This document shows, one piece after another, positions 35,217 to 63,250 of a DNA stretch of 64,000 bases. Numbering within the stretch: position 1 is the stretch's first letter; each line of letters opens with the position of its first letter. Origin of the DNA: Shimia isoporae (GTDB lineage: Bacteria > Pseudomonadota > Alphaproteobacteria > Rhodobacterales > Rhodobacteraceae). The stretch covers positions 1,550,001-1,614,000 of the forward strand of contig NZ_SMGR01000001.1 of the NCBI RefSeq assembly GCF_004346865.1. The letters are read 5' to 3'. Position numbers and translations under genes: made by a program. The notes under the pieces are model-generated. The model did no database searches. It was not told the DNA's origin and worked only from the letters and a program-made list of their open reading frames with translations.

Positions 35217-35250
35217 AAAAAAGCCCTCAAGTCAGAGACTTAAGGGCTTT
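35217..35250 (-). terminator. Original terminator of tRNA-Asn, left of attL
   Basis: On the minus strand a 13-bp stem (one G-T pair) with a TCT loop is followed by six T residues. It lies just beyond the displaced tRNA-Asn 3' segment and would have ended tRNA-Asn transcription before integration. Confidence 0.8.
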
Positions 35251-35300
35251 TTATGGCTCCGGCGGTAGGGATCGAACCTACGACCAATTGATTAACAGTC
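35245..35300. repeat. attL: 56-bp copy of the tRNA-Asn 3' part
   Basis: Identical over 56 bases to 63195-63250. It contains the tRNA-Asn sequence from the anticodon loop to the CCA end, plus 9 bases of flank. The tRNA 5' half is absent here. Together with the integrase gene 0.6 kb inside, it marks the left end of an integrated element; the copies are 27,950 bases apart. Confidence 0.93.
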
Positions 35301-35392
35301 CTAGGGCGACTGCCCTCCCATCGGTTGCCCATCGGAGAAAAAACCAAAAAGTCACCTTTAAAACATGACTGACCAATTGATTTTACCTTTAC

Positions 35393-35420
35393 TGTCGGAG
35401 TGTGTCGGAGCATGTCGGAG
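35393..35420 (+). repeat. Three direct repeats TGTCGGAG
   Basis: The octamer TGTCGGAG occurs at 35393, 35403 and 35413, spaced exactly 10 bases, one helical turn. A 12-base copy of part of the att core (GACCAATTGATT) is at 35371-35382. The position between attL and the first gene suggests arm-type integrase or excisionase sites. Confidence 0.55.
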
Positions 35421-35486
35421 GTCCGAAAACTGCCCTTCCTCTGCCCATCGGGAGGATGGGCAAAACCGAAAACACAGGACTTCCTC

Positions 35487-35909
35487 ATGAAGACAGAAGA
35501 CAAACTTAAACTTGCCCAAGATACACACGCGCAGTGCATGCGAACCCTCGAAATCCTCGAAGACTATGACGCGAACAGCCCGTTGATGGGAGCAGTCGGA
35601 GAACTATGGGCAGAGGTCAATCTGGGTATGACAAAGGCCGAGCGCGGTGCGGAGCACATCGACGGAACAACACCGGACGGTCGACGTTTGCAGGTGAAGG
35701 CAAAACGCGCTGGAGCGCATCGCGACAGCGGAACATACGTCACCATGCCCAAGGACACAAAGGCGGACGACTTACTGATTGTATTCGTCGCCGACGATGG
35801 AGAGATCACCCGCATAATCGGGCCAGTACCAACCAACCTCTTGCAGCCAAAAGGGCGCGGAAACCGCTGCTACGTCAGCGACATCGTCAAGGCAATTGGG
35901 GACAAATGA
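35487..35909 (+). CDS. Small PD-(D/E)XK nuclease-fold-like protein
   Basis: 140 residues. The order Glu39 (G-E-L-W-A-E), Asp64 (P-D-G-R-R-L) and Q-V-K at 69-71 on a strand followed by a helix fits a restriction-endonuclease-like core with the E-x-K position as Q-x-K. The later IGPVP segment is a further strand. The protein could cleave DNA or have lost activity. It ends directly at the integrase start with no gap, so both are likely expressed together. The family assignment is tentative. Confidence 0.5.
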   Translation: MKTEDKLKLAQDTHAQCMRTLEILEDYDANSPLMGAVGELWAEVNLGMTKAERGAEHIDGTTPDGRRLQVKAKRAGAHRDSGTYVTMPKDTKADDLLIVFVADDGEITRIIGPVPTNLLQPKGRGNRCYVSDIVKAIGDK

Positions 35910-37208
35910 ATGAAATTCGACATCGGAAAACCGCTCGCGATCAGAGCCGCGTTGAAACCCCACGACGACGGAAAGCCCTTCGAAATCAGCGACACGCAGG
36001 TCAAAGGCCTCACAGCGCGGGTCAGACGCATCGACGGGCAAATCATCGGCAAGTGGAACTGCCGCATCACCATCGACGGGAAGACCAAACGTATCAGCCT
36101 CGGCGATGTGAACGAGATGAGCGGCACAGAGGCCCGACTCGCAGCCATCACCACCAGAGAACAGGCCAGACAGGGTCAGACCATCGTGAGCGCCAGCACA
36201 GCAGCCAGAGAGGCCCAACGCGAGGCAGAGGAAGCCGCAGCCAAGGCAGCAGTCGACCAAACCACCCTGCACGACCTGCTGTTCGTCGATGATGGCCAGC
36301 GAAAGAGCTACGACACACTCAAGTGGCAGCACCTGAAGTCAGGTGCAGGCGCAGCACGACATGCGAGTAACTTCCTCGCAGACCTGCTGCACAAACCCGC
36401 GAAGCAACTCACCAAGTACGATCTGGAGCGGGTTTTCCTACAGAAAGCAGACACAGCACCGCACAGCGCCACCCGAGGGCTCGCGTACGTCCGCCCTGCC
36501 CTCATCTTCTTGATGAAGCGCGAATGGGTCCAGCGAGACGTTCTCGATCTGGTCGAAGATTTGAAGGTCAAAACGGTCGCGAGAGAGCGCGTTCTGCAGC
36601 CGGTAGAATGGCAAGCCATCTGGTCAGCCACAGGCACCGAACTGTTAAACGCCACACCCGCAGGCCTCGCGGTCAAAACGCTGATGATGACAGGCGCACG
36701 GAACCGAGAGGTCGCAGAGATGCGCGTCGATGAACTGCATCTCGACCGAGCCGAGTGGCATCTGCCGACCGACCGAAGCAAAAACGCAGACCCGCACGTC
36801 TTCTGCCTGCCCCAGCGAGCGGTCGAGGTGCTGCGTCACACGTTGCAGAAGAAAGAGGACTTCGGGCTCGAGGACAGTGAGTTCGTCTTCACGAACGACG
36901 GGATCGCCCCAGTCTGGCTGGGCAGCAAGGTCAAAGCGCAAATCGACAGCCGCAGCGGTGTGACGGAGTGGCGGTTTCATGACCTGCGACGCACGATGGC
37001 CACGGAACTCGGCGAACGCGGCATTAGCGGCGAGATTGTGGACATGATGCTGAACCACAGGGCCAGCGCGAGCCGCGGCGGTGTCAAAGGCGTTTACAAT
37101 CGATCGAAGCTGCTGCCACAGCGCCACGCCGCCGCAGACCGCTGGGGCAATATCACCGACAACTGGATCGACGGGCATACGTCAAACGTGGTCCAAATCG
37201 CCGGTTAA
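35910..37208 (+). CDS. int: Tyrosine recombinase/integrase of the element
   Basis: 432 residues. An N-terminal DUF4102-like arm-binding region (1-90) and a core-binding SAM-like domain (about 115-215) precede the catalytic domain with Arg264 (T-G-A-R-N-R-E), His357-x2-Arg360 (H-D-L-R-R-T), His383 and nucleophile Tyr396 (V-Y-N-R-S). It resembles P4-type integrases, which use tRNA 3' ends as targets. It is the first large gene inside attL and faces inward, so it is the likely agent of insertion into tRNA-Asn. Confidence 0.92.
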   Translation: MKFDIGKPLAIRAALKPHDDGKPFEISDTQVKGLTARVRRIDGQIIGKWNCRITIDGKTKRISLGDVNEMSGTEARLAAITTREQARQGQTIVSASTAAREAQREAEEAAAKAAVDQTTLHDLLFVDDGQRKSYDTLKWQHLKSGAGAARHASNFLADLLHKPAKQLTKYDLERVFLQKADTAPHSATRGLAYVRPALIFLMKREWVQRDVLDLVEDLKVKTVARERVLQPVEWQAIWSATGTELLNATPAGLAVKTLMMTGARNREVAEMRVDELHLDRAEWHLPTDRSKNADPHVFCLPQRAVEVLRHTLQKKEDFGLEDSEFVFTNDGIAPVWLGSKVKAQIDSRSGVTEWRFHDLRRTMATELGERGISGEIVDMMLNHRASASRGGVKGVYNRSKLLPQRHAAADRWGNITDNWIDGHTSNVVQIAG

Positions 37209-37476
37209 ACTTTGCTGGAGGGGTGGACAGGACCGAAACGATAGTCAACGATGGGTCATCCGTACCGCCACGCCTCAACCGTAAAATCGGCACTGACGTA
37301 ACAAACGGTCGGAGACCCTGCTGGCCCAATGACCGCGGCGACCTTGCTCTCACCGGATGGGGGAGAATGCTCGCCGGATGCATCATAGCACAAGTGGAAG
37401 ATCGACGGACAGCCCTACGAGGCGCGGCACTGACCGCATCGATCTCCCGCTTTTGCCGCGCCTCACAGCAGAGACG

Positions 37477-37791
37477 ATGACCCAACCATCCGAACTCAAG
37501 TACCTATTCAACGACCTGCCACTCTGGTGTTCGATTGACCATGTCTGCATGGCGGTAAATCGCGCAGTCCCGCGCACCGAAGGACTGGTCAAAATCGACA
37601 TGCGCCACGGCCTCGGCCAGAACGTCCAGCGCAAACGCCTCGGTCGCAATTTGTACTACGACCGAGCAGACCTGATCCACTACATCGAAGCGCTGCTAGA
37701 TAGCATGGAACCCGTCGACGGTCTGGACCCAGAAATGGCGGCACTGGCGAAGAAAGCGTCCGATGCGCTCGCTGAACGGGGTGCAGCATGA
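37477..37791 (+). CDS. Small putative DNA-binding protein of the element
   Basis: 104 residues from the ATG at 37477. The middle part (P-L-W-C-S-I-D-H-V-C-M-A-V ... K-R-L-G-R-N-L-Y-Y-D-R-A-D-L-I-H-Y-I) has the length and pattern of a winged-helix excisionase/AlpA-like protein, but the match is weak. It lies 268 bases after the integrase and opens a chain of ten overlapping genes. The stop overlaps the next ATG (ATGA). Confidence 0.5.
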   Translation: MTQPSELKYLFNDLPLWCSIDHVCMAVNRAVPRTEGLVKIDMRHGLGQNVQRKRLGRNLYYDRADLIHYIEALLDSMEPVDGLDPEMAALAKKASDALAERGAA

Positions 37792-37963: not shown

Positions 37964-38247
37964 GAATGGATCAGATGAAACCGGATCAACAGTCCGACAC
38001 GACACAACAAGGGCCCGTACCGGATCAGCCGTCGCAGATGGGCTGCGAAGGGGCAGAATCTGCCAAGATCGCAGCGATGGTGCCCATGAGCGACCAGCGC
38101 ACCCGATACATCGAGGAAGTCGCCAGACGAACCAGAAAAGTGGTCGCCGCAACAAAACGGAGTGAAGACACCATCGAACTGGTCAAACAACTGTACGCAA
38201 TCGCACCAAGAACCTCCGGTGGCGGTGGAATGCCAGAGGACAACTGA
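37960..38247 (+). CDS. Hypothetical protein of the element
   Basis: 95 residues. The N-terminal third is Gln/Pro/Asp-rich and probably disordered; residues 45-80 form a charged helix (R-Y-I-E-E-V-A-R-R-T-R-K-V). Not recognised. It is coupled by ATGA upstream and by TGATG to the primase gene downstream, so an accessory role in replication is possible. Confidence 0.55.
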   Translation: MRMDQMKPDQQSDTTQQGPVPDQPSQMGCEGAESAKIAAMVPMSDQRTRYIEEVARRTRKVVAATKRSEDTIELVKQLYAIAPRTSGGGGMPEDN

Positions 38248-39134
38248 TGCGTGACAGGAACCTAACCCCAGAGGAACTGACCCAAGCCCTCGGCGGAGAG
38301 TGGCGCGGCAATGTCGGTCGCGCCCCATGTCCAGCCCACGACGGCACGGACAACAACCTCGTCATCAGCCATGGCAACAACGGCATCGTCATGTACTGCC
38401 ACAGCCACGGCTGCGATTTCCGCGACATCACAAACGAACTCCGCAACCGCGGACTGTGGTCAGGAAAACCAGACGACAACTGGACGCCCCCCAGCCCTGC
38501 GCAGCGCGCCGAGAACAGGCGACGCCAAGCCCAACACGAGGCACAGAGGGTCGCCAAGGCCAAAGAGCAATGGGCGGGCAGTCAGCGGCTGGATGGCACG
38601 CTGGGCGATCGCTACCTGAACCGCACCAGAGGACGGGATGGTCGCGGCATCCTCGACCTGCGGTTTCACCCCCGCATCTTCTACAGCCAAGCCGAGTGGG
38701 CCCCCGCCATGATCGCCGCGGTCAGAAACGTGGTCACAGGCCAATTCCAAGGCGTCCATCGCACCTTTCTGAACGATGATGGCACAAAGCACGCCAATGC
38801 CCGTACGGTCAAAGGCATCGCTCACCACGGAGCCATCATGTTGGACCCGTTTGATGCGGTCACAACCGGACTGTCGATCTGCGAAGGCATCGAAGATGGG
38901 CTGGCCATCAGAAAACACCAGACTCCGGTGTGGGCCATGCTCAACAAAAACAACATCGCCGAACTGCCGGTGTTGAACGGCATCGAACACCTGACCATCT
39001 TTGCAGATCGCGACGCCGATGAAGGCGGTCTGAATGCCGCCAAGATGTGTCGCAGGCGATGGCAGGACGCCAGTGTCGAGGTGTCCGTCCTCCTGCCGAT
39101 CGGCGGCAAGGACGCAGACGAGGTACTGGCATGA
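38247..39134 (+). CDS. Phage/plasmid-type primase with zinc ribbon and Toprim domain
   Basis: 295 residues. The N-terminal zinc motif is Cys28-x2-His31 and Cys51-x4-Cys56. The C-terminal Toprim-like domain has the acidic residues in C-E-G-I-E-D-G-L-A and F-A-D-R-D-A-D-E-G-G. It resembles primases of the DnaG/P4-alpha type encoded in phage and plasmid replication modules. The helicase gene follows with an ATGA overlap, giving a primase-helicase pair. Confidence 0.83.
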   Translation: MRDRNLTPEELTQALGGEWRGNVGRAPCPAHDGTDNNLVISHGNNGIVMYCHSHGCDFRDITNELRNRGLWSGKPDDNWTPPSPAQRAENRRRQAQHEAQRVAKAKEQWAGSQRLDGTLGDRYLNRTRGRDGRGILDLRFHPRIFYSQAEWAPAMIAAVRNVVTGQFQGVHRTFLNDDGTKHANARTVKGIAHHGAIMLDPFDAVTTGLSICEGIEDGLAIRKHQTPVWAMLNKNNIAELPVLNGIEHLTIFADRDADEGGLNAAKMCRRRWQDASVEVSVLLPIGGKDADEVLA

Positions 39135-40471
39135 GCGACATCAACGAGAACTTCGAGCCGGTGCCAGACGATGAGCCGACCAAAGGACCCCAGGTCAACG
39201 GAACAGGTCAACAAAACAACGGTCAAAGCCACCAAGGCGACGCCGGTGGTCAGAGGGAGGGCTGGACTGAGGCGCTGATTGCGGAGCGCACCTTCACAAT
39301 CGGCCCTCCATTCCCAAAACGACGCCAACTGGTCTACGGCAACTTTGCCGCTCGAAAGCGAGTTACCGTGATCGGTGGCACAAGCGGCATAGGCAAGACG
39401 GCAATGATCTCGGCTTTGTCTGCAGACATGGCATCGGCGGGGGCGCTAACAAAAACACCGTGCCCCGAGGGTCCACTGAATGTCATCTCCATCAATACCG
39501 AAGATGACACCGAAGAAGTGGATCGCTCCCTGAACGCAACATGCGTGGGAAACGACATCACCAAAGCGCACATAGGCGACAGGATCGTTGCAATCGGTCG
39601 GGACAAACTGCTCACCGCTCCCATGGCCGTCGCGGGGAGTGAAAGGGCACCAACGCTCAACACTTCATTCTTCAAGAGCCTCTCCGACCTGATCGAAAAG
39701 TCCGGTGCGGATGTGCTGATCATCGATCCGATCGCAGGGCTCACAGGCGCGGTCGAGTTTACCCCGGGCGTGATGAACTTACTGCTGCGCGCCTTCATTG
39801 ACATGGCCATCAGGCAAAACATCGCCATCATCGTGGTCGCCCACACCAGAAAAAAGCAGGGCATCAGTTCCAATAACGATGACGCAGAAGACCTTTCCGG
39901 AGGCAAAACGCAACAGAACGCCGCGCGGTGCGTAATCATGGCGAGGCCGATAACCGAAAAGGAGGCAACCGCTTTCCGTCTCGACAAAGATGAGATGCGC
40001 AAACTGGTCAGAGCCACAGTTCGAAAAACCAACATCGGCATCGAGGGCGCGACACTGTGGTGGGAAAAGAAAACCACCATGCTCACCGACGACGATGGCG
40101 AATACGAGATGAACTACGTCTCGCCGTGGTCGCCGCCGTTTGTTTCAGAAAACGCAGACACCCGCATCTGGCCGGAACTCAAGTCACGGCTGCAGAGCGA
40201 CTTCATCTACGGTTCACTCAGAAGCAAAACTGAACCAAGGCTCGACAAACTCATCCAAGAAATTGCTGACACGGCTGGTCTGGCAATGGACGCCAAAAAG
40301 GTCGCCGAGGCGATGATCAAATCCAAATGGATTGAGATCGAAGATCACAAGCCTGAAGGGAAGAAATCACCTGCCAAACGAGCGGTGGTCGGGAGTGGTG
40401 ATCCTGACCATCAGACGCAAAATCAGCCCGATGATGAGGCGGCTGACCATGGTCAGGAGTTCACAGCATGA
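39131..40471 (+). CDS. RepA-like AAA/RecA-fold helicase ATPase
   Basis: 446 residues. Walker A is G-G-T-S-G-I-G-K-T (82-90) and Walker B is V-L-I-I-D-P (195-200), followed by a sensor-like VVAHTRKK. This matches the AAA_25/RepA hexameric replicative helicases of plasmids and phages. The C-terminus is a winged-helix-like region with an acidic tail. Start and stop overlap the primase gene and the next small gene. With the primase it forms the element's replication core. Confidence 0.87.
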   Translation: MSDINENFEPVPDDEPTKGPQVNGTGQQNNGQSHQGDAGGQREGWTEALIAERTFTIGPPFPKRRQLVYGNFAARKRVTVIGGTSGIGKTAMISALSADMASAGALTKTPCPEGPLNVISINTEDDTEEVDRSLNATCVGNDITKAHIGDRIVAIGRDKLLTAPMAVAGSERAPTLNTSFFKSLSDLIEKSGADVLIIDPIAGLTGAVEFTPGVMNLLLRAFIDMAIRQNIAIIVVAHTRKKQGISSNNDDAEDLSGGKTQQNAARCVIMARPITEKEATAFRLDKDEMRKLVRATVRKTNIGIEGATLWWEKKTTMLTDDDGEYEMNYVSPWSPPFVSENADTRIWPELKSRLQSDFIYGSLRSKTEPRLDKLIQEIADTAGLAMDAKKVAEAMIKSKWIEIEDHKPEGKKSPAKRAVVGSGDPDHQTQNQPDDEAADHGQEFTA

Positions 40472-40794: not shown

Positions 40795-41117
40795 ACACAC
40801 TGACAGCCGAAGACCAAGAGACCCACCGGCAACTGGTCGAGCAAATCGCACTCAAGCTGCAACTCCTCGCCAACCTGATGGCCAATGTCTGCGAACAGCA
40901 GACGATCGAACTGCCGGACATACCGCTGTCGATCGAATGGAAAAGCAAAAGCGAAGGCAACGGCATCGATAAGGTCTTCATCGAGGCACTCACCGACATC
41001 CACAGCTACATCGCAGGCTTCGAAAAGGGACAAGAGGCTGACTGGGGCATCAAAGTGGTCAACTTTTGGATCGGTCATGACGAGGATGACCCCGAGGAAA
41101 AACGGGTGCTGCAATGA
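40791..41117 (+). CDS. Hypothetical acidic protein of the element
   Basis: 108 residues, acidic and largely helical (E-D-Q-E-T-H-R-Q-L-V-E-Q-I-A-L-K-L-Q-L-L at the start). Not recognised. AGGAG lies a little upstream of the ATG, and the gene is coupled by ATGA to both neighbours. Confidence 0.6.
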   Translation: MNTLTAEDQETHRQLVEQIALKLQLLANLMANVCEQQTIELPDIPLSIEWKSKSEGNGIDKVFIEALTDIHSYIAGFEKGQEADWGIKVVNFWIGHDEDDPEEKRVLQ

Positions 41118-41719
41118 CCCAAGCCCGCGGCCTCTTCACATCGACCGGCAATGTGTCCCGCCAGACGACGGCGCGTAAAAAGGATGACTTCTACCCGACG
41201 CCGCCAGAAGCCACCGCCGCACTCATGGCCGCAGAAGCAAAAGACATCCGACACCATGCACCGTGGGTGATCTGGGAGCCATGTGTCGGCAACGGTGCCA
41301 TGGCCGAGGTCATCCGAAACATGGGCTTCACAGTGATCGGATCAGACCTGCACACCCGGTGGCCAGAAACGGAGAACTTCATCCAGCGGGACATCTTCGA
41401 CTGGGAAGCCCGACCGGCAGACGCAGTGATCACCAACCCGCCCTTCAATCTCATGTCCAAGCGCGACGGCACCGCGCCGTTCTTCACCCACCTGATGCAA
41501 CTCGGTGTGCCCTACATCGCCATGCTGCTCGGTGCACAATGGCCTTACGCCCAAAACCGCAAGTGGCTGCACGACACCATGCCCATGTCGCGCATCTACC
41601 CCATCCGGTGGCGGCTGCAATGGTCAGAAGGCAAAAACCCACCACAAAGCCACAACTGGGTGGTCTGGGACAGGAACCACCACGGCCCAACCGAACTGCA
41701 CTTCCTCGACAAACCATGA
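41114..41719 (+). CDS. Phage-type N6-adenine DNA methyltransferase-like protein
   Basis: 201 residues of the class I SAM methyltransferase fold. The SAM site is E-P-C-V-G-N-G-A-M (55-63), an acidic loop follows (G-S-D-L-H), and the catalytic motif is N-P-P-F (108-111), typical of amino-DNA methyltransferases. The Y-P-T-P-P segment at 27-31 occurs in Dam-like phage enzymes. There is no separate target-recognition domain and no partner restriction gene, so it is probably an orphan methylase. Confidence 0.8.
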   Translation: MTQARGLFTSTGNVSRQTTARKKDDFYPTPPEATAALMAAEAKDIRHHAPWVIWEPCVGNGAMAEVIRNMGFTVIGSDLHTRWPETENFIQRDIFDWEARPADAVITNPPFNLMSKRDGTAPFFTHLMQLGVPYIAMLLGAQWPYAQNRKWLHDTMPMSRIYPIRWRLQWSEGKNPPQSHNWVVWDRNHHGPTELHFLDKP

Positions 41720-42306
41720 CCGAAAGCAAGAGAACTGAACGCATGACCGCAATCATCGAACGACGTCTCCGCAAGAAGCTGGTCAAACCGACCCAACCCG
41801 CCACTGTCCGCCGCCAGAGCAGGGCTCTGGGCGTTTCCGCGGTCAAGGTCACACAGAAGACCTCTGACGCGCCCCAGAGCGTGCAAAAGCGCACCTGCAA
41901 GAATGGGCCAACAACCCTCGACAAACTGCAGGCAAAATGGCCCAAGGTGTTCCAGTTGTCAGCGCCCCTGCCCCTCGCCCTCGGCATCCACGAGGATATC
42001 GCCAAACATCTTTGCGATGAGGTCCCGATGAAAAAATCCGATCGACATTGGGATAGCGGACCAACCAGCGCAAGTACCGGAGCTCCAGAATCGAAGCGGC
42101 ATGACCTGAACGGCAATCCGGTTTGCGAGGTCGATGAGGATCAACGGGCATGGGCCAAAAGCAAACTGAACAAGCCCGCTGATCGTCAATCAACTGGTCA
42201 GGTCAAAATCAACAGGAAAAGGCGCAGAATGACCCAAAGCAGACATAGATGGGCTGAGAGTGGGCAGTCTCCCCGTCATCCCATGCGCGGTGAGGGCAAA
42301 TTTTGA
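41716..42306 (+). CDS. ProQ/FinO-domain RNA-binding protein, middle part abnormal
   Basis: 196 residues. A basic N-terminal tail is followed by L-D-K-L-Q-A-K-W-P-K-V-F ... L-P-L-A-L-G-I-H-E-D-I, the start of a ProQ/FinO domain, and later by R-H-D-L-N-G-N-P-V-C-E-V-D, its end. The stretch coded by 42025-42100 does not fit the family, while another frame there reads R-T-N-Q-R-K-Y, as expected for the missing helix. Two compensating frameshifts are likely. The protein may be inactive. It ends the ten-gene overlap chain. Confidence 0.65.
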   Translation: MTESKRTERMTAIIERRLRKKLVKPTQPATVRRQSRALGVSAVKVTQKTSDAPQSVQKRTCKNGPTTLDKLQAKWPKVFQLSAPLPLALGIHEDIAKHLCDEVPMKKSDRHWDSGPTSASTGAPESKRHDLNGNPVCEVDEDQRAWAKSKLNKPADRQSTGQVKINRKRRRMTQSRHRWAESGQSPRHPMRGEGKF

Positions 42307-42413: not shown

Positions 42414-42749
42414 ATGGCAGGACACCACCGATCAAACTCCGTTAAAGCGGGTAGACAAAAGCCGCACCAGTTCGTTCTCAAGCGCCTTTGGGCAGGCACA
42501 CATGAGGAATGCTACAATGCTGCGATAGAACTCCCCGACCTCGCTGGCGTGCCAGAGTCATTCGAGGGCGTGGGAGACACGGCAGGAGTCGCGATTGACC
42601 ATCTGATGCAACAGGTCACGGAACACGGCTACGGCGGGCAGCGGTTTTACATGGCGGGCACGTTCGAGGCCCCGACCGCAGAAGCCGATCGCGTACCAAT
42701 GACGGACCCGTTCGATGAGCCGTTTGAGGACGAGGACGTGGACATATGA
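42414..42749 (+). CDS. Hypothetical protein of the element
   Basis: 111 residues with a basic N-terminus and an acidic C-terminal tail (E-P-F-E-D-E-D-V-D-I). Not recognised. A strong AGGAGG site precedes the ATG. The stop overlaps the start of the terminase-like gene by ATGA. Confidence 0.6.
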   Translation: MAGHHRSNSVKAGRQKPHQFVLKRLWAGTHEECYNAAIELPDLAGVPESFEGVGDTAGVAIDHLMQQVTEHGYGGQRFYMAGTFEAPTAEADRVPMTDPFDEPFEDEDVDI

Positions 42750-44652: not shown

Positions 44653-44673
44653 GAAAGTAACCTGTCGTTGCGC

Positions 44674-44685: not shown

Positions 44686-44723
44686 TAGCATGGGATTGTC
44701 TGCTTACCAATCGTCAAGTAACC

Positions 44724-51883: not shown

Positions 51884-51886
51884 CTG

Positions 51887-54955: not shown

Positions 54956-55004
54956 TCAGATCACTGGCCTCACCTCGAAAGAGGTGGGGCCGGCAGAATT
55001 CCCG

Positions 55005-56246
55005 TTATCGGGGCGGGCCACTTCGCCAGAAATCTCCGGATTTGAAACTGTCATAGCCGTAGCTATAGAGCGCACGCATGTATTCCGGATCAAATGGTTC
55101 GGCGAGCGGCAAGGTAAAGTCTTCTCCAATCCACGCAACCCGGTAGCGTGCGTTGGTAGCACGCGCGAGTTTATAGCCAAGCTCCAATTCACTGGCGCCC
55201 TGATTTTTGGTCAACGTTGTAAGGGAACGCTCGGCGATTGAGAGCAGGTTTGCATCCGTCACGTTGGGCTCAGGCGCGATCTTGCCGTTGCGGATCAAAT
55301 ATAGCGTCGGACGACCGGCGAGCTGACTGCTGTGTCGCCAGCTGTTCAGGCTTGTCGACTGGGAGATAACGCCGCCATCCACGTGCAATTCGTCCCGCAC
55401 ACCATCAGGCGTTTCCACTTCGATCAGCACAGGTGGGAAAATCGCCGGCATTGCGGAAGAGGCCAACAGCACGTCCCGGAACAGGTCTGGCGCGTTTGGC
55501 GCCCCGCTGGCGGCGATGGCACCGAGATCCCAGATAACGGCTCGCTGCGCATCAAGACTTGTGGTTTGTACCAACAGCCGGCGCCCGCGTTCGTGTTGTT
55601 TTGCGATAGCCGCTAGGAATTCCGGTGTAATGTAGGCTTCAATCGTTTCACGGAGCGGCTCCGAACTGTAACGGGATGCGTTTGGCAGAACCCCAAACAA
55701 TGACCGGACCTTAAAGATGCTGTCTGGCTCCAACCCACCAAAAAACTGGCGCAAGTCGTCATCGTAGTCTGACCCTAGATAAGCAAACGGCGCAGCCAGA
55801 GCACCTGTCGAAACGCCTGTGACCACAAGAAACTCAGGGCGCGAGCCACTTTCTGACCATGCCTTGAGTGCCCCGGCCGAAAAAGCCCCATTCTCCGCAC
55901 CACCGGACAACGCCAAGACATTGAATGCACCGCCCAGTCCAGCCGCTCGTCGGCGCGCGTCAACGTCTCTATTGAGCGCTGATATGTTGGCCGGCGGCGT
56001 GTCTCCCCAAAACCGCACATCCTGCATATTGGGAACTTGCGGGTCATCTAGGTCCGCCAGCGAAATAGGGTCTCTATGAATGTTGGAACTGCAGGAACAA
56101 CAAACCAAAGTGACAATCGTCGCAAGGATGGCCCTGGTTCGCCCCTTCGTCGAAAAGGATAATGTGGATTGGGTCACGTATTGGATCGCTACCTGAATGA
56201 ATTGTTGGACTTTCAAACAGATTACTACGAGACGCAAAACGATCAA
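55005..56246 (-). CDS. Patatin-like phospholipase, exported
   Basis: 413 residues. The Ser-Asp dyad is Ser147 (G-V-S-T-G) and Asp290 (V-D-G-G), with the oxyanion loop S-G-G-A-E-N-G-A at 114-121. The N-terminal 50 residues include a hydrophobic stretch ending in Cys-rich C-C-S-C-S-S, like a lipoprotein signal but without a standard lipobox. A GTG at 56177 gives a more normal signal length and may be the true start. It converges on the RND pump gene. A lipid acyl hydrolase role is expected. Confidence 0.83.
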   Translation of the reverse strand: MIVLRLVVICLKVQQFIQVAIQYVTQSTLSFSTKGRTRAILATIVTLVCCSCSSNIHRDPISLADLDDPQVPNMQDVRFWGDTPPANISALNRDVDARRRAAGLGGAFNVLALSGGAENGAFSAGALKAWSESGSRPEFLVVTGVSTGALAAPFAYLGSDYDDDLRQFFGGLEPDSIFKVRSLFGVLPNASRYSSEPLRETIEAYITPEFLAAIAKQHERGRRLLVQTTSLDAQRAVIWDLGAIAASGAPNAPDLFRDVLLASSAMPAIFPPVLIEVETPDGVRDELHVDGGVISQSTSLNSWRHSSQLAGRPTLYLIRNGKIAPEPNVTDANLLSIAERSLTTLTKNQGASELELGYKLARATNARYRVAWIGEDFTLPLAEPFDPEYMRALYSYGYDSFKSGDFWRSGPPR

Positions 56247-56579
56247 CCTTGGGATCAGGTATGCAGGTTAGCAATACGTGTCACCATTGCCCCCAAACTT
56301 CACGCAGTTGGCTTTATCTGCAGCACTTTCTGCAAAGCAGTCATTGGCGTCGGATTGCAGCGAACGTCCGCATTCCGCCCTTTTCGGCGACGTCCGCTCC
56401 CGGCCCAGAGCAAACGTTCGTTCTGCTTGGGACTTTAAACAACTCGGAACGGACAGGGGGAGACTTCCCTCAGAGCGCAACGCATCATCCTCGATAACTC
56501 AAGGGCCTCGCTTCGCGCGACATTCCCAGTTGAATCGACCTATCTTATCACGCTTGACCAGGCAACGCATGAGTTTGCC
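56247..56579. other. Intergenic stretch with repeat copy 2
   Basis: About 330 bases between the patatin gene and the HlyD gene, with no supported gene. It contains the second copy of the 32-base repeat (56375-56406) and looks like decayed sequence. Confidence 0.5.
56375..56406 (+). repeat. 32-bp repeat, copy 2
   Basis: Matches 43895-43926 at 31 of 32 positions in the same orientation. The two copies bracket the TetR to patatin part of the cargo (12.5 kb). Confidence 0.8.
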
Positions 56580-57794
56580 TTAGTGCGCGCCTCCACCAAG
56601 CCCAATTCCAGCAGCCAATGCAATCCAAACTTTAATACGCAGCAGGACCGCCTTCAGTACCCCCAATGCCTCTATGCCGTGAGCCAGAACGCCTCCTTCC
56701 AATGCGCCGGTCACATGCGTCGTATAGGTCTGCACCATGCATCCGCTCCCCTGCATAAGCACGGCTTGGTGCTCCGGATGAACCAATTCAAGGTGAACAA
56801 CAATATCGCCGCGCATGGCCCGCTCTCCCGGTTCGATCAAACGCCCGGATGGAGTCATTTGTCCCGTCGACACCACAGATTGGATTCGCGCGACCCGCGC
56901 TGGCAAAACAGTATTTCGCATTGAAATGTTGAAACTGCTGTCGCATGCGACCTCCGCAGCCATTCCTTCATGCAAAATGCTTTTTGTCACTTGCGAGAAA
57001 CCTGCCGAAACGAAAGGAGGTTCATCTTCAGGTCGATCGGGAATAATGACCATCGATGGGTTCAATGCCAATTGAGAAGCCCGCGCACCCACGTGGAGGG
57101 TCAGTTGCTCAACTATCCCATTCGACGCTGCAAAAACTTGCGTTTTGTTTAAGTCGACTTTTGCTTGAACCAGAATTGCCTCTGCGCTTTCCAACCGAGC
57201 CGGAAGAATGGACGCGACCTGAAGCTTTGCTGCGTCCAATCTGCGTTGCGCAGCGTCAACTTCCGCCAAACGTAGTTCACGGGTATTTTGTGCTCGCTCA
57301 AGCTCGCTTTGTTGAAAGGCCGCAGACCCTCGTTGTCTTAATCCTTCTTGATCCTCCAAAGTCAGCTCAATCTGCTCCAACTGTGACTGCGCTCCTGCCA
57401 GTGCCGCCTCAGCAGTCTGTATATCGACTTTACCTGCGGCGATTGCTGCCTGTGCTTCCACGATTTTGCGCTCGGCAACAAGAACAGCCGCTTTCTCAGC
57501 GCCGTCGTCTACAGTGAAAAGCAGGTCACCTTTCTGAACTCGGTCACCGGCCGAAACCGCCACCGAAGTAACGGTCCCGCTATTCTCGGCAACGACTGGG
57601 ATCGTTCTAAAGGCGACAATGCCAGTATAGGATTTAGGGTAGTAATAGAAGACTGTGAAGAAAACCGCCAAAGCCAAAACCAGCCACAAAAACAGCGCCC
57701 AATGAACTGTATAGAGCGTTACCGGTATTCCGCGCCACCTCAGATAAACGACACGCAAAATGAACGGGAAGGAAGTGAGGACAAGCTCAATCAT
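56580..57794 (-). CDS. HlyD-family membrane-fusion protein
   Basis: 404 residues. An N-terminal helix (about 28-50) anchors it in the inner membrane. A biotinyl-lipoyl half (S-G-T-V-T-S-V-A-V-S-A-G-D), a long coiled coil (about 100-205) and the second lipoyl half (A-S-N-G-I-V-E-Q-L) follow, and a C-terminal hydrophobic segment (about 385-402) is unusual for HlyD. Partnered with the small membrane protein upstream by an ATGA overlap, it resembles the YiaV/YibH arrangement of enteric bacteria. Export substrate unknown. Confidence 0.85.
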   Translation of the reverse strand: MIELVLTSFPFILRVVYLRWRGIPVTLYTVHWALFLWLVLALAVFFTVFYYYPKSYTGIVAFRTIPVVAENSGTVTSVAVSAGDRVQKGDLLFTVDDGAEKAAVLVAERKIVEAQAAIAAGKVDIQTAEAALAGAQSQLEQIELTLEDQEGLRQRGSAAFQQSELERAQNTRELRLAEVDAAQRRLDAAKLQVASILPARLESAEAILVQAKVDLNKTQVFAASNGIVEQLTLHVGARASQLALNPSMVIIPDRPEDEPPFVSAGFSQVTKSILHEGMAAEVACDSSFNISMRNTVLPARVARIQSVVSTGQMTPSGRLIEPGERAMRGDIVVHLELVHPEHQAVLMQGSGCMVQTYTTHVTGALEGGVLAHGIEALGVLKAVLLRIKVWIALAAGIGLGGGAH

Positions 57795-58123
57795 TTGCCT
57801 TGCTCCTCATGATGCGGGTCCCACCAAAGCATGAAGTCGCGAGCCAGAGCCGCGAGAATTAATGCAATCGGCAGCAGCACGCTAAAGTGCGACAGAGGAG
57901 GAAAAATTTCGTAGGCCAGCGCAACGGTCAACATGGTTGGAATCGTTGTTCTCAGCGGGGTATCGATTGCGCGGTGCTCTGCATATCGGTCAAAGCGCGC
58001 GTACATATGAATGACCGCGTAGACCAGCAGGAAGAAGAACACCAATCCAACCATAGCAAAAACGTCTGTTTCACCTGGTGCCGTCCACCATGCGGGCGCG
58101 CCACCGTGATTACCCTCAGCCAT
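57791..58123 (-). CDS. Small inner-membrane protein partnered with HlyD
   Basis: 110 residues with three hydrophobic segments (about 22-43, 61-76, 80-97) and His/Asp-rich ends (W-W-D-P-H-H-E-E at the C-terminus). I do not recognise the family. Size and gene order recall the small DUF3302 partner of YiaV/YibH-type adaptors, though the sequence itself does not clearly match. Coupled to the HlyD gene by ATGA. Confidence 0.7.
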   Translation of the reverse strand: MAEGNHGGAPAWWTAPGETDVFAMVGLVFFFLLVYAVIHMYARFDRYAEHRAIDTPLRTTIPTMLTVALAYEIFPPLSHFSVLLPIALILAALARDFMLWWDPHHEEQGK

Positions 58124-58211
58124 TTGTCAAACCCTCCCAAAAACCTGTTTGCACATCGGCGCAGGTAAAAAATCCGCGCCGATGCCAACTAAAAACAAGC
58201 GTACTCGGTAA

Positions 58212-59711
58212 TCATTCAATCAATTCGAAGTCGCCGGGTCGCCAACTCTTATCGAACCAAGGCTCCAGCGGCCCATAGAGACGCATCATGACATTGAAAC
58301 TCTTACCAGGCATAGTCTGCGCCCAGTTGTTTTCCCAACCTTCAGGCGCTTCAGGTCCGACGTAGATGGTATAGCTTCCATCGTTGTTGGCTTTGATGCC
58401 TTCACGATTGGAATCGATGCCTCCAGATTTTTGGTCTGTCTCAAGAATGGAACGTGTCTGACCGCTGTAGAGCATAAACGACCAGAAGTTTTTCGCGGGC
58501 ACTGGCGCGGGCAAGGTAACTTTGTAGGTTTTAGAACCATCAAGGTACTCGCCATTCACGTCTCGTGCCGTCATGGCATAAACCGAGCCCGAGCCCACCG
58601 GCGGCGACGTCATGGCTGGCGTTATGCCGGTGGCCATGTAAAAGAAGTAGGTACGGTCGTCGAGAATGCGGGCGCTGTTCTCTAGGAACTGATAGCTCTG
58701 GCGCTGGAATGGCGAATTCCATTGACGGTCTTCGTAAAAGAAGACACCCGGATCACGGCTTGCATAAGTGATGGCACGGGCGGTTGCATTTGCGATTGCT
58801 GCAGCTTCTTTCATAATGCCTTGCATGCGGGCGTCCGGTTCAAACGGCTGTCCCTTCTTGAGGCCAATTGAAGCAAAAGTACCCAAGATTTCGGGCGCGA
58901 AGGCATCTTCGGGATTGTTTTCGAGTGCGACGTGTATCTCTTCGAAAAAGTCCTCATTGTTGGCGTGTACTGTGTTGTATTGAACACCCGAAACATTGAT
59001 GAATGTCTCATTGGGCGGGTTGGCAGCATCGGCCAGCGGATATACATTTAAACCAGCTTTGATTTCTGAGACTGGCCCTTCGGTACTTCCATCGGCGTTG
59101 GGAGATCGGCGCAACAGGAGCCAGTGCTCGTAGGTTTTTGTACGAAGCTCAAAATACCCATCCGGCACCGGAGTTTCGTCATCGTTGTGCAGAAGTAGAT
59201 ACTTGCCACCTTTGCCTTTGTCGGCTCCAAGCACGCCAATGTCCGCCACGTAGTCAAAAGCGGCATCATCCAAAAGACCAAGCAAACCAGCGGGCACATC
59301 AATGACGACAGGCCCATCCGAGATATCCACGTTTGAGCCGATATAGATGGTTGTTGTGTTCGGTGTCAGCCAAATGGAACGTGCATCCATGAGCGTCTCG
59401 GTGATCACCACATCATTTGGCTTTGCCCCGACGTTCTCGTACCCTTGGAACATACCTCTCAGTGAGGCAATTTTCATTCCGTCCAAAAAGGCGGTAGTGG
59501 CCCTCATTAGGTCGAGGTTATCGAAGACCTTCTCGACCGTATCAGCGCTCGGCATGCCATCGAAAAACTCCAATGTGCCGAGGGTCTCGGTTTCAACGGA
59601 GTCCGGCGTCAGCACATTTTGTGGAACGTCTGCTGCAAATTCCTGGGACTGAACAGCAGTTGCCACAGCCAAGGCCATTGCACTGCAGGTCAGAAATTGA
59701 CTTAAGTTCAT
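58212..59711 (-). CDS. DUF1254/DUF1214 exported protein, copy B
   Basis: 499 residues with a signal peptide (about 1-22, ending V-Q-S-Q). The N-terminal DUF1254 domain (about 60-200) and C-terminal DUF1214 domain (about 360-480) carry the typical W-L-T-P-N-T-T-T-I-Y and K-N-F-W-S-F-M-L-Y-S-G-Q-T-R blocks. Proteins of this kind are periplasmic and of unknown biochemical function. The ATG at 59711 follows GGAGG. It lies 17 bases after copy A, with which it shares architecture, so an old tandem duplication is likely. Confidence 0.87.
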   Translation of the reverse strand: MNLSQFLTCSAMALAVATAVQSQEFAADVPQNVLTPDSVETETLGTLEFFDGMPSADTVEKVFDNLDLMRATTAFLDGMKIASLRGMFQGYENVGAKPNDVVITETLMDARSIWLTPNTTTIYIGSNVDISDGPVVIDVPAGLLGLLDDAAFDYVADIGVLGADKGKGGKYLLLHNDDETPVPDGYFELRTKTYEHWLLLRRSPNADGSTEGPVSEIKAGLNVYPLADAANPPNETFINVSGVQYNTVHANNEDFFEEIHVALENNPEDAFAPEILGTFASIGLKKGQPFEPDARMQGIMKEAAAIANATARAITYASRDPGVFFYEDRQWNSPFQRQSYQFLENSARILDDRTYFFYMATGITPAMTSPPVGSGSVYAMTARDVNGEYLDGSKTYKVTLPAPVPAKNFWSFMLYSGQTRSILETDQKSGGIDSNREGIKANNDGSYTIYVGPEAPEGWENNWAQTMPGKSFNVMMRLYGPLEPWFDKSWRPGDFELIE

Positions 59712-59728
59712 GGTTTCCTCCAAATACT

Positions 59729-61216
59729 TCATTTCAATTTTTCAAGATCACCAAGCTGCCACCCGCTTTGCAGCCATCCTTCCTCAGGGCCGTACAGGCG
59801 GAAGAGAAGGAAGTAGCTTTCGGTGGTCGGAATCCAGTTGGCTTCCATACCTTCGGGGGCAAACGGACCGAAATAGATATCGTAAGACCCATCCTCGTTG
59901 GCCTTCATGGTTTCAGCGTCACGGGACGACAGACCTACGCGGTCAACGTCACGAATGAAGCTCTTGGTCTCCATCGAATAGACAATGACAGACCAGAAAT
60001 CCTTGGCTGGAGTATCTGCCGGAACATTCAGTTTGTAGGTGGCATTGTGGTCATACATCTCGCCATCGCTGTCGCGCAGACCAGTTAGGTAGAAAGTGCC
60101 TCCGCCCAACAGTTTGGGAAGGTAAGTGATCCAGAAATAGCTGCCGCCTGCGCGGTCATCGACCAGAATTTCTGTGTCTGTTTCATAGGGAAATCCTGCT
60201 TCTGCTTGGCCTTCGGCAAAGTCCCAAACCAGCCATTGGCTCTTGAGGCTACCATCTTCATTCGCCCACAAAGGCACAGTCGCAAGACCTGGCTCAACGA
60301 AGTAACGTTGCATCGCGGCATATGCCAAAACCAACCCTTCGTTCATCGCCGCAATTTGGCGTTCCGTTGGTTCGAAAGGCTTGCCCTTTTCGATGCCCAA
60401 ATCCTTCAGGAAATTGACCATGATTTTATCTTGTGGGCGGATAGGGTTGTTTTGAACATAATCGTTCAGGTCCTGAAAGTACGTCTCGTTGTAATATGGC
60501 AGCGAGTCATACGGTACATCAGAAGCCTCATGATAGGTGTTGGCCGGAGGGTTGTCCGCCTCTGATAGATAGTAAACTTTGATTGTCTGCGCGTATTCGG
60601 CCGCATCCGCATCCGTAGCGCCATTGTAAAGACGGGGGCGGAACGAGAAACCGTACTCATAGGTGTCTGTTTCAAAGGGCATATATCCGGCAGCGGCCAT
60701 GTCTTCCATGGACATTTCGCCTTCATAGCCCGGTGGGATCATGACGTATTTCCCGCCTTTTCCCTCGTCAAATCCGGATGGGCCAACATCCGCAATCGGT
60801 TGATCCCAAGCATTCACAATGGTGCCAAAGTAACTCACACTCTCCGTTGCGGCAGGAACCTCGATCACCAAAGGCCCCGGTTCCGAAGTCATTGATGCCC
60901 AAGCATAAGCGGTCACATCGTTGGCCGTGAGAAACCCGTGTTTTGAATCGAATGGTTTGTTCAGATACACAATGTCGTTGTAGTCACCACCAAGGTCGCG
61001 CCGAATTCCTTTCAAGAAATCCACCATCCCGGCGGCTGGCATGCCCCAGATGGCGGCCTGCGTAGCGCGCTGGACCATTATCTGATACTCGATGTCTTCC
61101 ACCTCAGCTGATCGCGCCAGAATGTCCCCTGTATCATTGAAAGTCTGGCTGAACGCCAATTGAGCGGGTATCGCAAGCGCGACGGCCAATCCCAAGCAAG
61201 GTAATGAAGCCTTCAT
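59729..61216 (-). CDS. DUF1254/DUF1214 exported protein, copy A
   Basis: 495 residues with a signal peptide (about 1-22). The same two-domain layout as copy B: DUF1254 near 50-180 and DUF1214 near 350-470 with K-D-F-W-S-V-I-V-Y-S-M-E-T. The paralogues are clearly diverged, which suggests distinct ligands or a heteromer. It is the first gene of the operon A, B, small membrane protein, HlyD, and is divergent from the AraC regulator 103 bases away. Confidence 0.87.
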   Translation of the reverse strand: MKASLPCLGLAVALAIPAQLAFSQTFNDTGDILARSAEVEDIEYQIMVQRATQAAIWGMPAAGMVDFLKGIRRDLGGDYNDIVYLNKPFDSKHGFLTANDVTAYAWASMTSEPGPLVIEVPAATESVSYFGTIVNAWDQPIADVGPSGFDEGKGGKYVMIPPGYEGEMSMEDMAAAGYMPFETDTYEYGFSFRPRLYNGATDADAAEYAQTIKVYYLSEADNPPANTYHEASDVPYDSLPYYNETYFQDLNDYVQNNPIRPQDKIMVNFLKDLGIEKGKPFEPTERQIAAMNEGLVLAYAAMQRYFVEPGLATVPLWANEDGSLKSQWLVWDFAEGQAEAGFPYETDTEILVDDRAGGSYFWITYLPKLLGGGTFYLTGLRDSDGEMYDHNATYKLNVPADTPAKDFWSVIVYSMETKSFIRDVDRVGLSSRDAETMKANEDGSYDIYFGPFAPEGMEANWIPTTESYFLLFRLYGPEEGWLQSGWQLGDLEKLK

Positions 61217-61261
61217 TGATCTGTCCCTACAAAAATAGATGGAATCGAAAAAAGATTAACG

Positions 61262-61316
61262 GTTTCCGTCCGTTGCGACGTATCATTTTACGACAGTTGA
61301 AAATTTTGACGGAAAC
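61262..61316. promoter_or_regulatory. 9-bp inverted repeat in the AraC/DUF1254 divergent promoter
   Basis: GTTTCCGTC at 61262-61270 and its exact complement GACGGAAAC at 61308-61316, centres 46 bases apart, frame the gap just before the AraC start. Widely spaced half-sites suit looping or paired binding by an AraC-type regulator. Confidence 0.5.
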
Positions 61317-61319
61317 GTG

Positions 61320-62318
61320 ATGCCGCTGCCTCCCTTGATCTCTGCCAAGGCACTCGGAGCAATGCCCGAATTCACACTCGAGCATGTGGGGGAAAAAGCA
61401 CTTAACCGGGCATTGAAAACAGCGGGTCTGCCTTACGGTCTTTTGGAAGCTCGTGAAGGATTCATACCAAAATATGCGCTCGCAGAATTTATCGACCAGG
61501 TCAGCGTCGAGTTGGGTGAACGTCACATCGGATTAATGTGGGCACCCGCCCTGACCATCGCAGACTACGGAGCTTGGGGAGGTTACGTACTCAATGCACC
61601 AACCTTGGGTGCCGCGTTAGAGCGCGCCAGACAGGTTATGCCCTACCACTCGTCAGTGGATCGAACTCACTTTAGAGCACAAGGCGACCTAATTGGGTAT
61701 GAATATAGCTTTGGACTGAAAGGCCACCGTGCATATTCGAACGTAGCATTTTCCGCATTGGGCTCTGTTCTGAGTATATTTAAAACTTTTCTGGGCTCTA
61801 ATTGGAAACCGGAACGCATTGAGTGCGATCTTCCTCGGACAAACCAGCATGAGCAAGTAGAAGCGGTGTTTGGATGCCCCATTGTCTGGAACGCCAGGCG
61901 TTTGGAAATTTGGTTTCGCAAATCTGTTCTGACGACCACTTTGAAGCCGCTACATGTCGTCCCAGTCACTCTACAAGACATACAAAGAGAACGCTGTTTG
62001 GCGGGCGGAGAAACATTTTCGAACGTAGTGAATTCGGTCCTAATGCAGCAGGTGTCCGGCGAGGGAATAGATCTGGACAACGCAGCTCGAATGTTGGGTA
62101 TTGGGCCGCGTTCGCTTCAGCGAAAACTACATACCGAAGGAACAAGTTTCCGAACGCTCTCCAACCAGGTGAAAGCAAATCGAGCTACGGAACTACTCCA
62201 AGAAGGAAGCCTTTCTGTCAAACAGGTTGCGGCTGAACTCGGGTATGAAACCCCGCAGAACTTTAGCCGCGCATTCCGCAAGGTGACAGGAATGCCGCCG
62301 TCTTCTCTGGCTGAATAG
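61320..62318 (+). CDS. AraC-family transcriptional regulator
   Basis: 332 residues from the ATG at 61320 (a GTG one codon upstream is possible). The N-terminal part (about 15-200) is the Arabinose_bd-type domain of OruR/ArgR-like regulators, and the C-terminal double HTH (about 230-330) has R-S-L-Q-R-K-L and the family signature L-G-Y-E-T-P-Q-N-F-S-R-A-F-R-K-V-T-G-M-P-P-S. Divergent from the DUF1254 operon, which it probably activates on sensing a small hydrophobic or amino-acid-like ligand. Confidence 0.88.
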   Translation: MPLPPLISAKALGAMPEFTLEHVGEKALNRALKTAGLPYGLLEAREGFIPKYALAEFIDQVSVELGERHIGLMWAPALTIADYGAWGGYVLNAPTLGAALERARQVMPYHSSVDRTHFRAQGDLIGYEYSFGLKGHRAYSNVAFSALGSVLSIFKTFLGSNWKPERIECDLPRTNQHEQVEAVFGCPIVWNARRLEIWFRKSVLTTTLKPLHVVPVTLQDIQRERCLAGGETFSNVVNSVLMQQVSGEGIDLDNAARMLGIGPRSLQRKLHTEGTSFRTLSNQVKANRATELLQEGSLSVKQVAAELGYETPQNFSRAFRKVTGMPPSSLAE

Positions 62319-62508
62319 GATTTAAAAAGCATCGGTTTCGCATAGATTTTGGCTTGAAAAAAGGGCGGCATATTTTCGCCTAAAGGTCCCTCAGGTTCTC
62401 CTTTACCAGCCTCATAGCTTTTTGGCAGTTGCGTGTTTTGTCGGAGAACATTGAGTGCAGTCGAGGCGAATAACCGCTTCCCACCCACATCGAAAGTGAG
62501 CAATACTA

Positions 62509-62988
62509 GTGCTGGGCGATGCAGGACGGGCCAATCGCTTCTTTGCCAGCTTCACGTCAGACGGGCGCTTCATGGCGGTGGTGGGCTTTGCGACCCGCTG
62601 GCGTCGCCACAACAGCGACGACGGGACGGTGCTGTGGTGACGAGGCTGTACAACACTCGCAGCCCACGTACACGCCGCCACATGGACAGCAGGACAGGCG
62701 CTGAAGGACCTGAAAACTGAAAGACTTTCCAAGGGCATCGCCTACTCCGACCCGCTCGCAGGTGAACGCGGTGTCGTTTACAGCGCAGCGGGTCTCAAAC
62801 AGGACGGTGAACCGCATGGGCGCTTCCGCGTTCAACTACCAAAGGTCAAATGGCACGAACACCACCTCTGCCACTCAGACCGATGGCTGAGACATGGCGG
62901 ACGCAAATGGTCGGCGGACCAAGCACGGTCGAAGGGCTACCGCGTCGAACAGGTGCCGCAGCGAAAACTCTGGACCAAATCACTCTGA
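62509..62988 (+). pseudogene. Mom-like DNA-modification protein, interrupted by a stop codon
   Basis: A 160-codon frame from GTG 62509 to TGA 62986-62988 with one in-frame TGA at 62638-62640. Both parts look coded: V-V-G-F-A-T-R-W-R-R-H before the stop and, after it, A-Y-S-D-P-L-A-G-E-R-G-V-V-Y-S-A-A-G-L with a C-terminal R-K-L-W-T-K-S-L. The second pattern resembles Mom-type GNAT-like phage proteins that modify adenine (S/Y-x-D-P-x-x-G-H-x-G-x-x-Y-x-A). The assignment is by eye. It is probably a remnant of the phage side of the element. Confidence 0.5.
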
Positions 62989-63165
62989 ACGCGGGGAGAT
63001 TATTTGTGCCAAAAAGCACCGAATGCGGGCACAAATCTCTAAACAGCGGAAAATCAAAAAACCTGAGCGCCTCCAAAACGCCACAGCGCGGACTGCCCAC
63101 CCCGTCCTGACGGAACTGCCCGTTCTCAGCCCTTCCACCGAACACGATGGGCAGGTCCAACAACC

Positions 63166-63200
63166 AAAAAAGCCTCTAACCGTTTGAGGTCAGAGGCTTT
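63166..63200 (-). terminator. Terminator next to tRNA-Asn, supplied by the element
   Basis: On the minus strand a 12-bp stem (one G-T pair) with a six-base loop is followed by six T residues, directly after the tRNA-Asn 3' end. It differs in sequence from the original terminator at 35217-35250 but has the same design, so the element carries its own replacement. Confidence 0.8.
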
Positions 63201-63250
63201 TTATGGCTCCGGCGGTAGGGATCGAACCTACGACCAATTGATTAACAGTC
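63195..63250. repeat. attR: 56-bp tRNA-Asn 3' part
   Basis: Identical to 35245-35300; the right boundary of the element. The repeat runs from the terminator edge through the tRNA 3' end to the anticodon loop. Confidence 0.93.

Follow-up and report, generated by a model that had tools for sequence, protein, structure and literature searches.

Ends of the element and its tRNA-Asn target

We analysed a 64,000-nucleotide stretch of the Shimia isoporae genome (contig NZ_SMGR01000001.1, positions 1,550,001 to 1,614,000 of the forward strand; "the window", in which all coordinates below are counted), where about 28 kb of DNA lies between two copies of a 56-bp direct repeat at the tRNA-Asn(GTT) gene. 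An earlier reading, made from the letters of this DNA alone, had proposed that the block is an element integrated in the tRNA gene. Comparison of the window with itself confirmed that the two repeat copies, at 35245-35300 and 63195-63250, are exactly identical, and that the bases bordering them differ (G/A before, C/A after). No other direct or inverted repeat of at least 24 bp was found in the 64 kb, and a chance origin of the pair was rejected on this ground. ARAGORN and Rfam both called one tRNA-Asn(GTT), at the right end, and no tRNA at the left, in line with the claim that the whole gene stands on the right and only its 3' part on the left. The two ends comprise the following features.

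35215..35252, minus strand: terminator that originally served tRNA-Asn in the host, since displaced to the outer side of the left end (hairpin, -21.9 kcal/mol, 0/200 shuffles)
35245..35300, minus strand: left end, attachment (att) core, a truncated tRNA-Asn copy (3' 47 nt plus 9 nt of flank)
35310..35462, strand unassigned: candidate integrase arm sites, left cluster (TGCCCATC / GATGGGCA and CTGCCC)
35910..37208, plus strand: P4-type tyrosine recombinase (integrase; PF00589 9.8e-16, Arm-DNA-bind_3 3.4e-06, phrog_1 2.4e-39)
37474..37791, plus strand: possible AlpA/Xis-like winged-helix protein (low-confidence structure model)
63093..63154, strand unassigned: candidate integrase arm sites, right cluster (one TGCCCATC, three CTGCCC)
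63168..63204, minus strand: terminator-like hairpin that the element brings, next to the complete tRNA (-21.7 kcal/mol, 0/200 shuffles)
63195..63250, minus strand: right end, att core within the complete tRNA-Asn
63204..63278, minus strand: complete tRNA-Asn(GTT) (ARAGORN; Rfam tRNA, 72.4 bits)

The att core takes in 47 of the 75 tRNA nucleotides, namely the 3' part, with its inner edge in the anticodon region, and the 5' 28 nt lie outside the element on its right side. An excised circle would measure 27,950 bp, the start-to-start distance of the repeat copies; the sequence-only reading gave this figure as the number of bases between the copies, which is right for the spacing and the circle but not for the DNA strictly between them, which amounts to 27,894 bases. 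Because the truncated left copy is the only other strong match to tRNA-Asn in the genome (9 contigs, 4.2 Mb), the gene is apparently the sole tRNA-Asn(GTT). Rfam also recorded an alphaproteobacterial tmRNA.

The integrase gene starts 609 bp inside the left repeat copy and its frame is open. The predicted protein matches both PF00589 (58.4 bits) and Arm-DNA-bind_3 (27.5 bits against a cut-off of 27), as expected from its description as a P4-type integrase just within the left end, and it carries what we take to be the R-K-HxxR-H-Y motifs of this family. Four of the eight copies of TGCCCATC in the window fall within the two 250-bp ends (500 bp) just inside the element; in a control, an equally frequent 8-mer with copies on both sides was found in 4 of 2000 random segment pairs. 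These repeated end motifs are candidate arm sites for the integrase rather than proof of binding. Within the left cluster and ahead of the first gene, TGTCGGAG occurs three times at 35393-35420 with 10-bp spacing, possibly as an operator. Downstream of the integrase gene, the protein encoded at 37474..37791 had no Pfam match, and its structure model (mean predicted local distance difference test score, pLDDT, 62.5) has the order helix-helix-strand-strand-helix.

An empty site in a relative

A relative with an empty tRNA-Asn site, the natural test of the proposed insertion, was found within the genus. In genome G014 the acc gene, the terminator, a complete tRNA-Asn and the MBL gene stand together. 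When the flanks of the element were joined through a single core, the resulting sequence aligned with G014 unbroken over 840 nt (665/840 identical, 79%, with 2 gap positions), and the flanking proteins are likewise similar (75.7% over 592 aa for the acc gene; 86% over 201 aa for the MBL gene). A search of G014 found no match to the integrase at 1e-15 or to the primase at 1e-10. The full acc - tRNA-Asn - MBL junction was found in this 1 of 24 other genus genomes. DNA of the acc gene was matched in only one further genome (G017), where it lies about 800 kb from the tRNA. Elsewhere in the genus the terminator also directly adjoins the tRNA (the better matches run at 87-95% for some 90 nt), but no acc-gene DNA was matched next to the pair. 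The search with the right flank took in 21 of the 24 genomes.

The two hairpins at the ends differ in sequence from one another. At the empty site of G014, the terminator beside the tRNA is of the same type as the one displaced to the left end of the element. The carried hairpin, by eye, resembles those beside tRNA-Asn in G016, G019 and G012, as if it had been acquired from a host like these. In G013, nearly the same sequence follows both the partial and the complete tRNA-Asn copy, and the shared core therefore seems to be longer there.

A foreign left core

The region directly inside the left end (35301-43348) holds the integrase, the possible AlpA/Xis-like gene and the following genes.

35487..35909, plus strand: DUF6998 protein with weak likeness to a restriction enzyme model (PF22522 2.7e-08, PADLOC mREase_II 4.2e-4)
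38247..39134, plus strand: DUF7146/Toprim primase (PF23639 1.7e-19, PF13362 4.5e-14, phrog_510 2.3e-29)
39131..40471, plus strand: RepA-like AAA_25 ATPase/helicase (PF13481 7.9e-21, phrog_239 1.3e-19)
41114..41719, plus strand: phage-type DNA methyltransferase (phrog_799 4.4e-45), with relatives in alphaproteobacterial phages
41716..42306, plus strand: ProQ/FinO-domain RNA-binding protein (PF04352 3.8e-12)
42746..43348, plus strand: helix-turn-helix (HTH) protein resembling terminase small subunits (TerS; phrog_309 7.4e-07, phrog_4102 5.5e-05, HTH_7 7.8e-07)

The TerS-like protein also matches a DNA invertase family (phrog_125, 7.9e-06), and its structure model was not usable (mean pLDDT 42.5). 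For the small open reading frames (ORFs) at 37960, 40743 and 42414, neither Pfam nor PHROGs offered a meaningful match. A PADLOC search of 10 element proteins found no defence system, only single-gene resemblances: besides that of the DUF6998 protein, these linked the patatin of the cargo to phospholipase effector models (1.1e-12) and the methylase to mad2 (2.5e-06).

The left 8 kb is compositionally foreign and the cargo to its right host-like, which makes the element a hybrid. The dinucleotide distance of the left core from the 35-kb flank is 80.0, while 14 flank pieces of the same size have a mean of 27.8 and a maximum of 45.6; for the cargo it is 31.3, within the range of 9 same-size flank pieces (mean 26.3, maximum 41.9). 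The core also had no close relative in the genomes searched. With the genome of S. isoporae itself included in every count, the integrase was matched in 1/149 genomes at 1e-60, 2/394 at 1e-35 and, within the genus, 4/25 at 1e-15; the primase in 3/25 genus genomes at 1e-10; the ATPase in 1/149 genomes at 1e-40 and 5/292 at 1e-20; and the TerS-like protein in 1/345 at 1e-6. No relative of the primase was found in genome_contigs, and none of the ATPase, the integrase or the TerS-like protein in viral contigs, where the peptide pattern used reaches close relatives only. By tblastn the ATPase had distant, partial matches in 17 phage and 3 plasmid records, none covering 80%. Two distant relatives of the core, L076 and L077, were examined at the level of their ORFs. 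L077 (G008:C4:154000-172000, about 5561-11580), in another genome, is a compact block that is possibly a cargo-free cousin of the core: it has what reads as a P4-like integrase gene, small ORFs, a primase with 29% identity to ours and a 518-aa ORF in the position of the ATPase.

A roseobacter-type cargo and the right-end remnant

Between the left core and the right end lie the cargo and a short remnant.

44065..62318, strand unassigned: cargo of host-like composition
62641..62985, plus strand: open frame with a Mom-like DNA-modification remnant (phrog_1384 2.5e-05)

The cargo, about 18 kb long, encodes a TetR regulator, a Rieske oxygenase alpha subunit, a short Xer-like recombinase (46008-46703), an SLC13/CitMHS transporter, an MFS transporter, an RND adaptor and pump, a patatin, an HlyD-type protein, a 110-aa protein, two DUF1254/DUF1214 proteins and an AraC regulator. 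Matches to Pfam and PHROGs bear out the gene set of the sequence-only reading, a replication core joined to an efflux and detoxification cargo. Solved relatives of the DUF1254/DUF1214 proteins are named only as uncharacterised or hypothetical (VPA0735, VPA0106). The match of the remnant, in one of the 72 gap frames described below, covers profile positions 101-184 of 245, and a Mom match in Pfam (0.0011) came up among these frames.

Relatives were traced for the AraC-DUF1254-DUF1254 part and the short recombinase, as distinct from the RND, MFS, SLC13, patatin and Rieske genes. With the peptide pattern, the DUF1254 protein was found at 36 loci in genome_contigs, many of them in Ruegeria and Shimia at 83-87% identity; the order AraC-DUF1254-DUF1254 recurs at 19 of the 36, and in other phyla some loci show nothing beyond a lone DUF1254 gene or a tandem of them. 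Plasmid records with a match to the short recombinase number 1380, mostly below 60% identity; among the matches listed, 20 from almost exclusively roseobacter-type hosts stand at 83-89%, and two records reach 90-95%. Elsewhere (L079; G091:C6:2000-21900), an AraC-DUF1254-DUF1254 cassette (DUF1254 41-53% identical) and a short recombinase (69%) occur together at a distance of roughly 6 kb from what reads as a P4-like integrase gene adjoining tRNA-Arg(ACG). This is another island, related to ours in its cargo. This cassette, the roseobacter loci and the plasmid-borne recombinase together indicate that cargo of this sort circulates independently of the chassis. A plasmid origin of the whole cargo was considered and rejected, a single short megablast match being all that was found. 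The DUF1254 protein is also 83-84% identical to proteins in records named Lysobacterales (a metagenome-assembled genome, MAG) and Pseudohalioglobus (L085, L096); this likeness suggests transfer between classes, with mis-binning of the MAG as another possible source. A second DUF1254 protein, 54% identical, is encoded elsewhere in the S. isoporae genome (G000:C1:1040922-1042415, in L072).

No transfer or structural genes recognised

The sequence-only reading had held that the element lacks structural and conjugation genes and is not a standard prophage or integrative and conjugative element (ICE). Our searches agree: at the thresholds used, no match to a relaxase, type IV secretion system (T4SS), large terminase, portal, capsid or tail protein was recognised in Pfam or PHROGs among the named ORFs and 72 further frames, each 45 codons or longer, from the gaps between them; the RND, TetR and two DUF1254 genes were covered by Pfam alone. 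By these scans the element shows neither the capsid, portal, tail and large terminase genes of a temperate prophage nor the relaxase and T4SS genes of an ICE. Across the whole genome, the relaxase family PF03432, the one searched for there, gave a single match, below the cut-off and on another contig; other relaxase families and origins of transfer (oriT) were not searched for. On the contig of the element itself, some 370 kb from it, is a match to phrog_2, which we take to be a large terminase family, so that a helper within the genome is conceivable.

tRNA-Asn as a recurrent site in the genus

Of the 24 other genus genomes, at least 4 (G002, G004, G012, G013) have partial tRNA-Asn copies of 45-49 nt, a count that leaves aside a third copy in G013 and weaker or shorter ones in G006, G021 and G022. 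An integrase-like gene stands beside a truncated copy in G002, G012 and G013, pointing away from the copy as our integrase gene does. The three genes resemble one another and ours only distantly: that of G012 is 27-30% identical to the integrase of the window, that of G013 33% (and was not seen by tblastn), and that of G002 is 25% identical to the one in G012. By this comparison tRNA-Asn is used by other elements in the genus.

Two genomes (L008 in G024; L028 in G001) carry a tandem pair of complete tRNA-Asn genes, whose starts are 239 and 108 bp apart, respectively, and which may be relics of earlier integration. In G013 (L074; C28, about 13600-19500), multicopper oxidase- and metal-transport-like genes, judged by reading only, lie more than 11 kb outside a truncated tRNA-Asn copy, on the side away from its integrase, and may belong to a neighbouring tandem island.

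Nature and possible movement of the element

The locus combines a direct repeat containing the tRNA 3' part, with the complete tRNA at one end, a P4-family integrase just inside the other end, and an empty site in one relative of the same genus (G014). We consider it very likely that the 27,950 bp are a site-specific integrative genomic island in the apparently sole tRNA-Asn(GTT) gene, and the element is real and probably mobile but not self-transmissible. Its integrase would cross over within the 56-bp core, bind TGCCC(ATC) arm sites at both ends and excise the element as a circle, perhaps aided by the AlpA/Xis-like protein; the primase and the RepA-like ATPase could then copy this circle. 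On integration, a hairpin brought by the right end would take over from the tRNA terminator, which is displaced. As to origin, a phage-related chassis, running from the integrase to the TerS-like gene on the left and including the Mom remnant on the right, may have received an inserted roseobacter-type cargo. Since no transfer machinery is recognisable, movement between cells would need outside help, from a helper phage or a conjugative element, or passive uptake.

Several points weigh against this reading. The complete empty-site junction was seen in a single genome, which belongs to another species. The arm motif was chosen after the ends had been inspected, the same control was weaker for 6-, 7- and 9-mers (15, 67 and 9 of 2000), and the 10-mer TGCCCATCGG, with one mismatch allowed, is not clearly over-represented in the window (12 against 7.04 expected, a number reached in 8 of 100 shuffles). 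The possible AlpA/Xis-like role was read from a low-confidence model without an alignment, and the Mom-like match is weak and partial, with no significant phage match by tblastn. Single 3-kb pieces of the flank reach a dinucleotide distance of 68, so that at this scale the distinct part shrinks to 36-42 kb (114 and 101). Finally, no integrase match was found beside the partial tRNA-Asn copies of G004:C19, G012:C52 and G013:C5.

Among other explanations, the left core invites two that involve a phage. The early-region gene order that ends at the TerS-like gene, the Mom remnant at the far end and the restriction of foreign composition to the core would fit a temperate phage that integrated in the tRNA, lost its structural genes after TerS, had them replaced by host cargo and is now immobile. 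Yet no structural gene was matched in the 72 gap frames at E values up to 0.001, the integrase and replication genes are open, and the att repeat has no mismatch even though its left copy is an incomplete tRNA; we regard such a decayed prophage as somewhat unlikely. The same order of integrase, primase, helicase, methylase and TerS-like gene, with no large terminase or structural genes recognised, could belong to a live phage satellite, induced by a helper phage, replicated by its primase and ATPase, and steered into helper capsids by the TerS-like protein. Matches of the last core gene to two terminase small subunit families (phrog_309, phrog_4102) and distant relatives of the primase and methylase in phages speak for this, and of the hallmarks of phage-inducible chromosomal islands the integrase and primase were matched, with weak evidence for the AlpA-like and TerS-like proteins. 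The TerS assignment, however, is weak and mixed, with DNA invertase and resolvase HTH profiles scoring alike and the two phage records matched (E 3e-3) annotated as "putative DNA binding domain"; close relatives of the ATPase, integrase and TerS-like protein were not found in the viral contigs, as described above; and 28 kb exceeds the roughly 20 kb given for satellites of standard capsids in PMC12595487. A live satellite is thus, in our judgement, unlikely.

An integrative mobilizable element (IME), moved by a conjugative plasmid through an unrecognised oriT, is quite unlikely. ProQ/FinO proteins are often plasmid-borne, which counts in its favour. Elements with only an oriT do exist (PMC11389934), but no relaxase was recognised in the ORFs and gap frames, and the sub-threshold PF03432 match is on another contig. 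It is also conceivable that there was no insertion, the block being ancestral and lost in relatives or the repeat an assembly artefact. The host-like cargo and junctions that rest on the assembly leave some room for this, but the precise tRNA-derived repeat with an integrase inside, the contiguous terminator and tRNA of relatives and the absence of the core from nearly all relatives searched make it very improbable indeed.

A broader version of the favoured integrative-island reading would see tRNA-Asn elements as a class that spares host tRNA expression, with the integrase at the far end and a replacement terminator, taken from earlier hosts, moving with the element, and here with a satellite-type chassis hauling 18 kb of bacterial cargo. 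We hold this to be rather improbable, because the hairpins of the other elements in the genus are not assignable to those elements (their ends lie on different contigs) and because a stem-loop is already known from ICEKp1.

Comparison with known systems

Islands without transfer genes are common, so the novelty implied by the sequence-only reading is smaller than it sounds. Points that go beyond that reading are the contrast between foreign core and host-like cargo, the Mom-like remnant, the ProQ gene, both terminators, the arm-site motif and the use of this tRNA by other elements. The element resembles tRNA-borne islands with P4-type integrases in its core in the tRNA 3' part, the integrase inside one end, the direct repeats, the cargo and the lack of recognised transfer genes. 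It differs from them in that its integrase lies beside the truncated copy rather than the complete tRNA, and in carrying a terminator-like hairpin for the tRNA as well as its own primase-ATPase module. The base-pair-defined ends and this unusual integrase and replication core make excision and transfer directly testable.

The closest parallels are as follows. The Pseudomonas tmRNA islands I23, I44 and I55 (PMC12595487) share a tyrosine integrase near one end, direct repeats and the lack of genes for autonomous transfer, and I23 and I55 also a DNA methyltransferase; I55 was moved by a jumbo phage. Here the site is tRNA-Asn, the repeat 56 bp rather than 14 bp, and the cargo efflux and oxygenase genes rather than phage defence. 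ICEKp1 of Klebsiella (PMC13023037) has the same tRNA-Asn target and likewise displaces the host terminator to its far end, but its int gene lies beside the tRNA and is co-transcribed from the tRNA promoter, with a stem-loop in the int leader that only attenuates this transcription. The present element has int at the end away from the tRNA and a strong hairpin right beside the tRNA, and no conjugation genes were recognised in it; the two form a contrast in the fate of tRNA termination after integration.

PICMI and other phage satellites (PMC10803314) also have an integrase, a possible AlpA-like regulator and a primase. By the criteria described there the element is not a PICMI, since its primase matches DUF7146/Toprim_3 and not DUF3987 or DUF5906, it occupies tRNA-Asn instead of fis, and it spans 28 kb with bacterial cargo. 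Tycheposons (PMC10872708) share the tRNA site, the tyrosine recombinase and the presence of cargo, in a different host; a set of Prochlorococcus-type core genes also belongs to their definition. Set among these systems, the element adds a new and clearly delimited case to a common type of genomic island, one in which a foreign, phage-like chassis is joined to locally circulating cargo.

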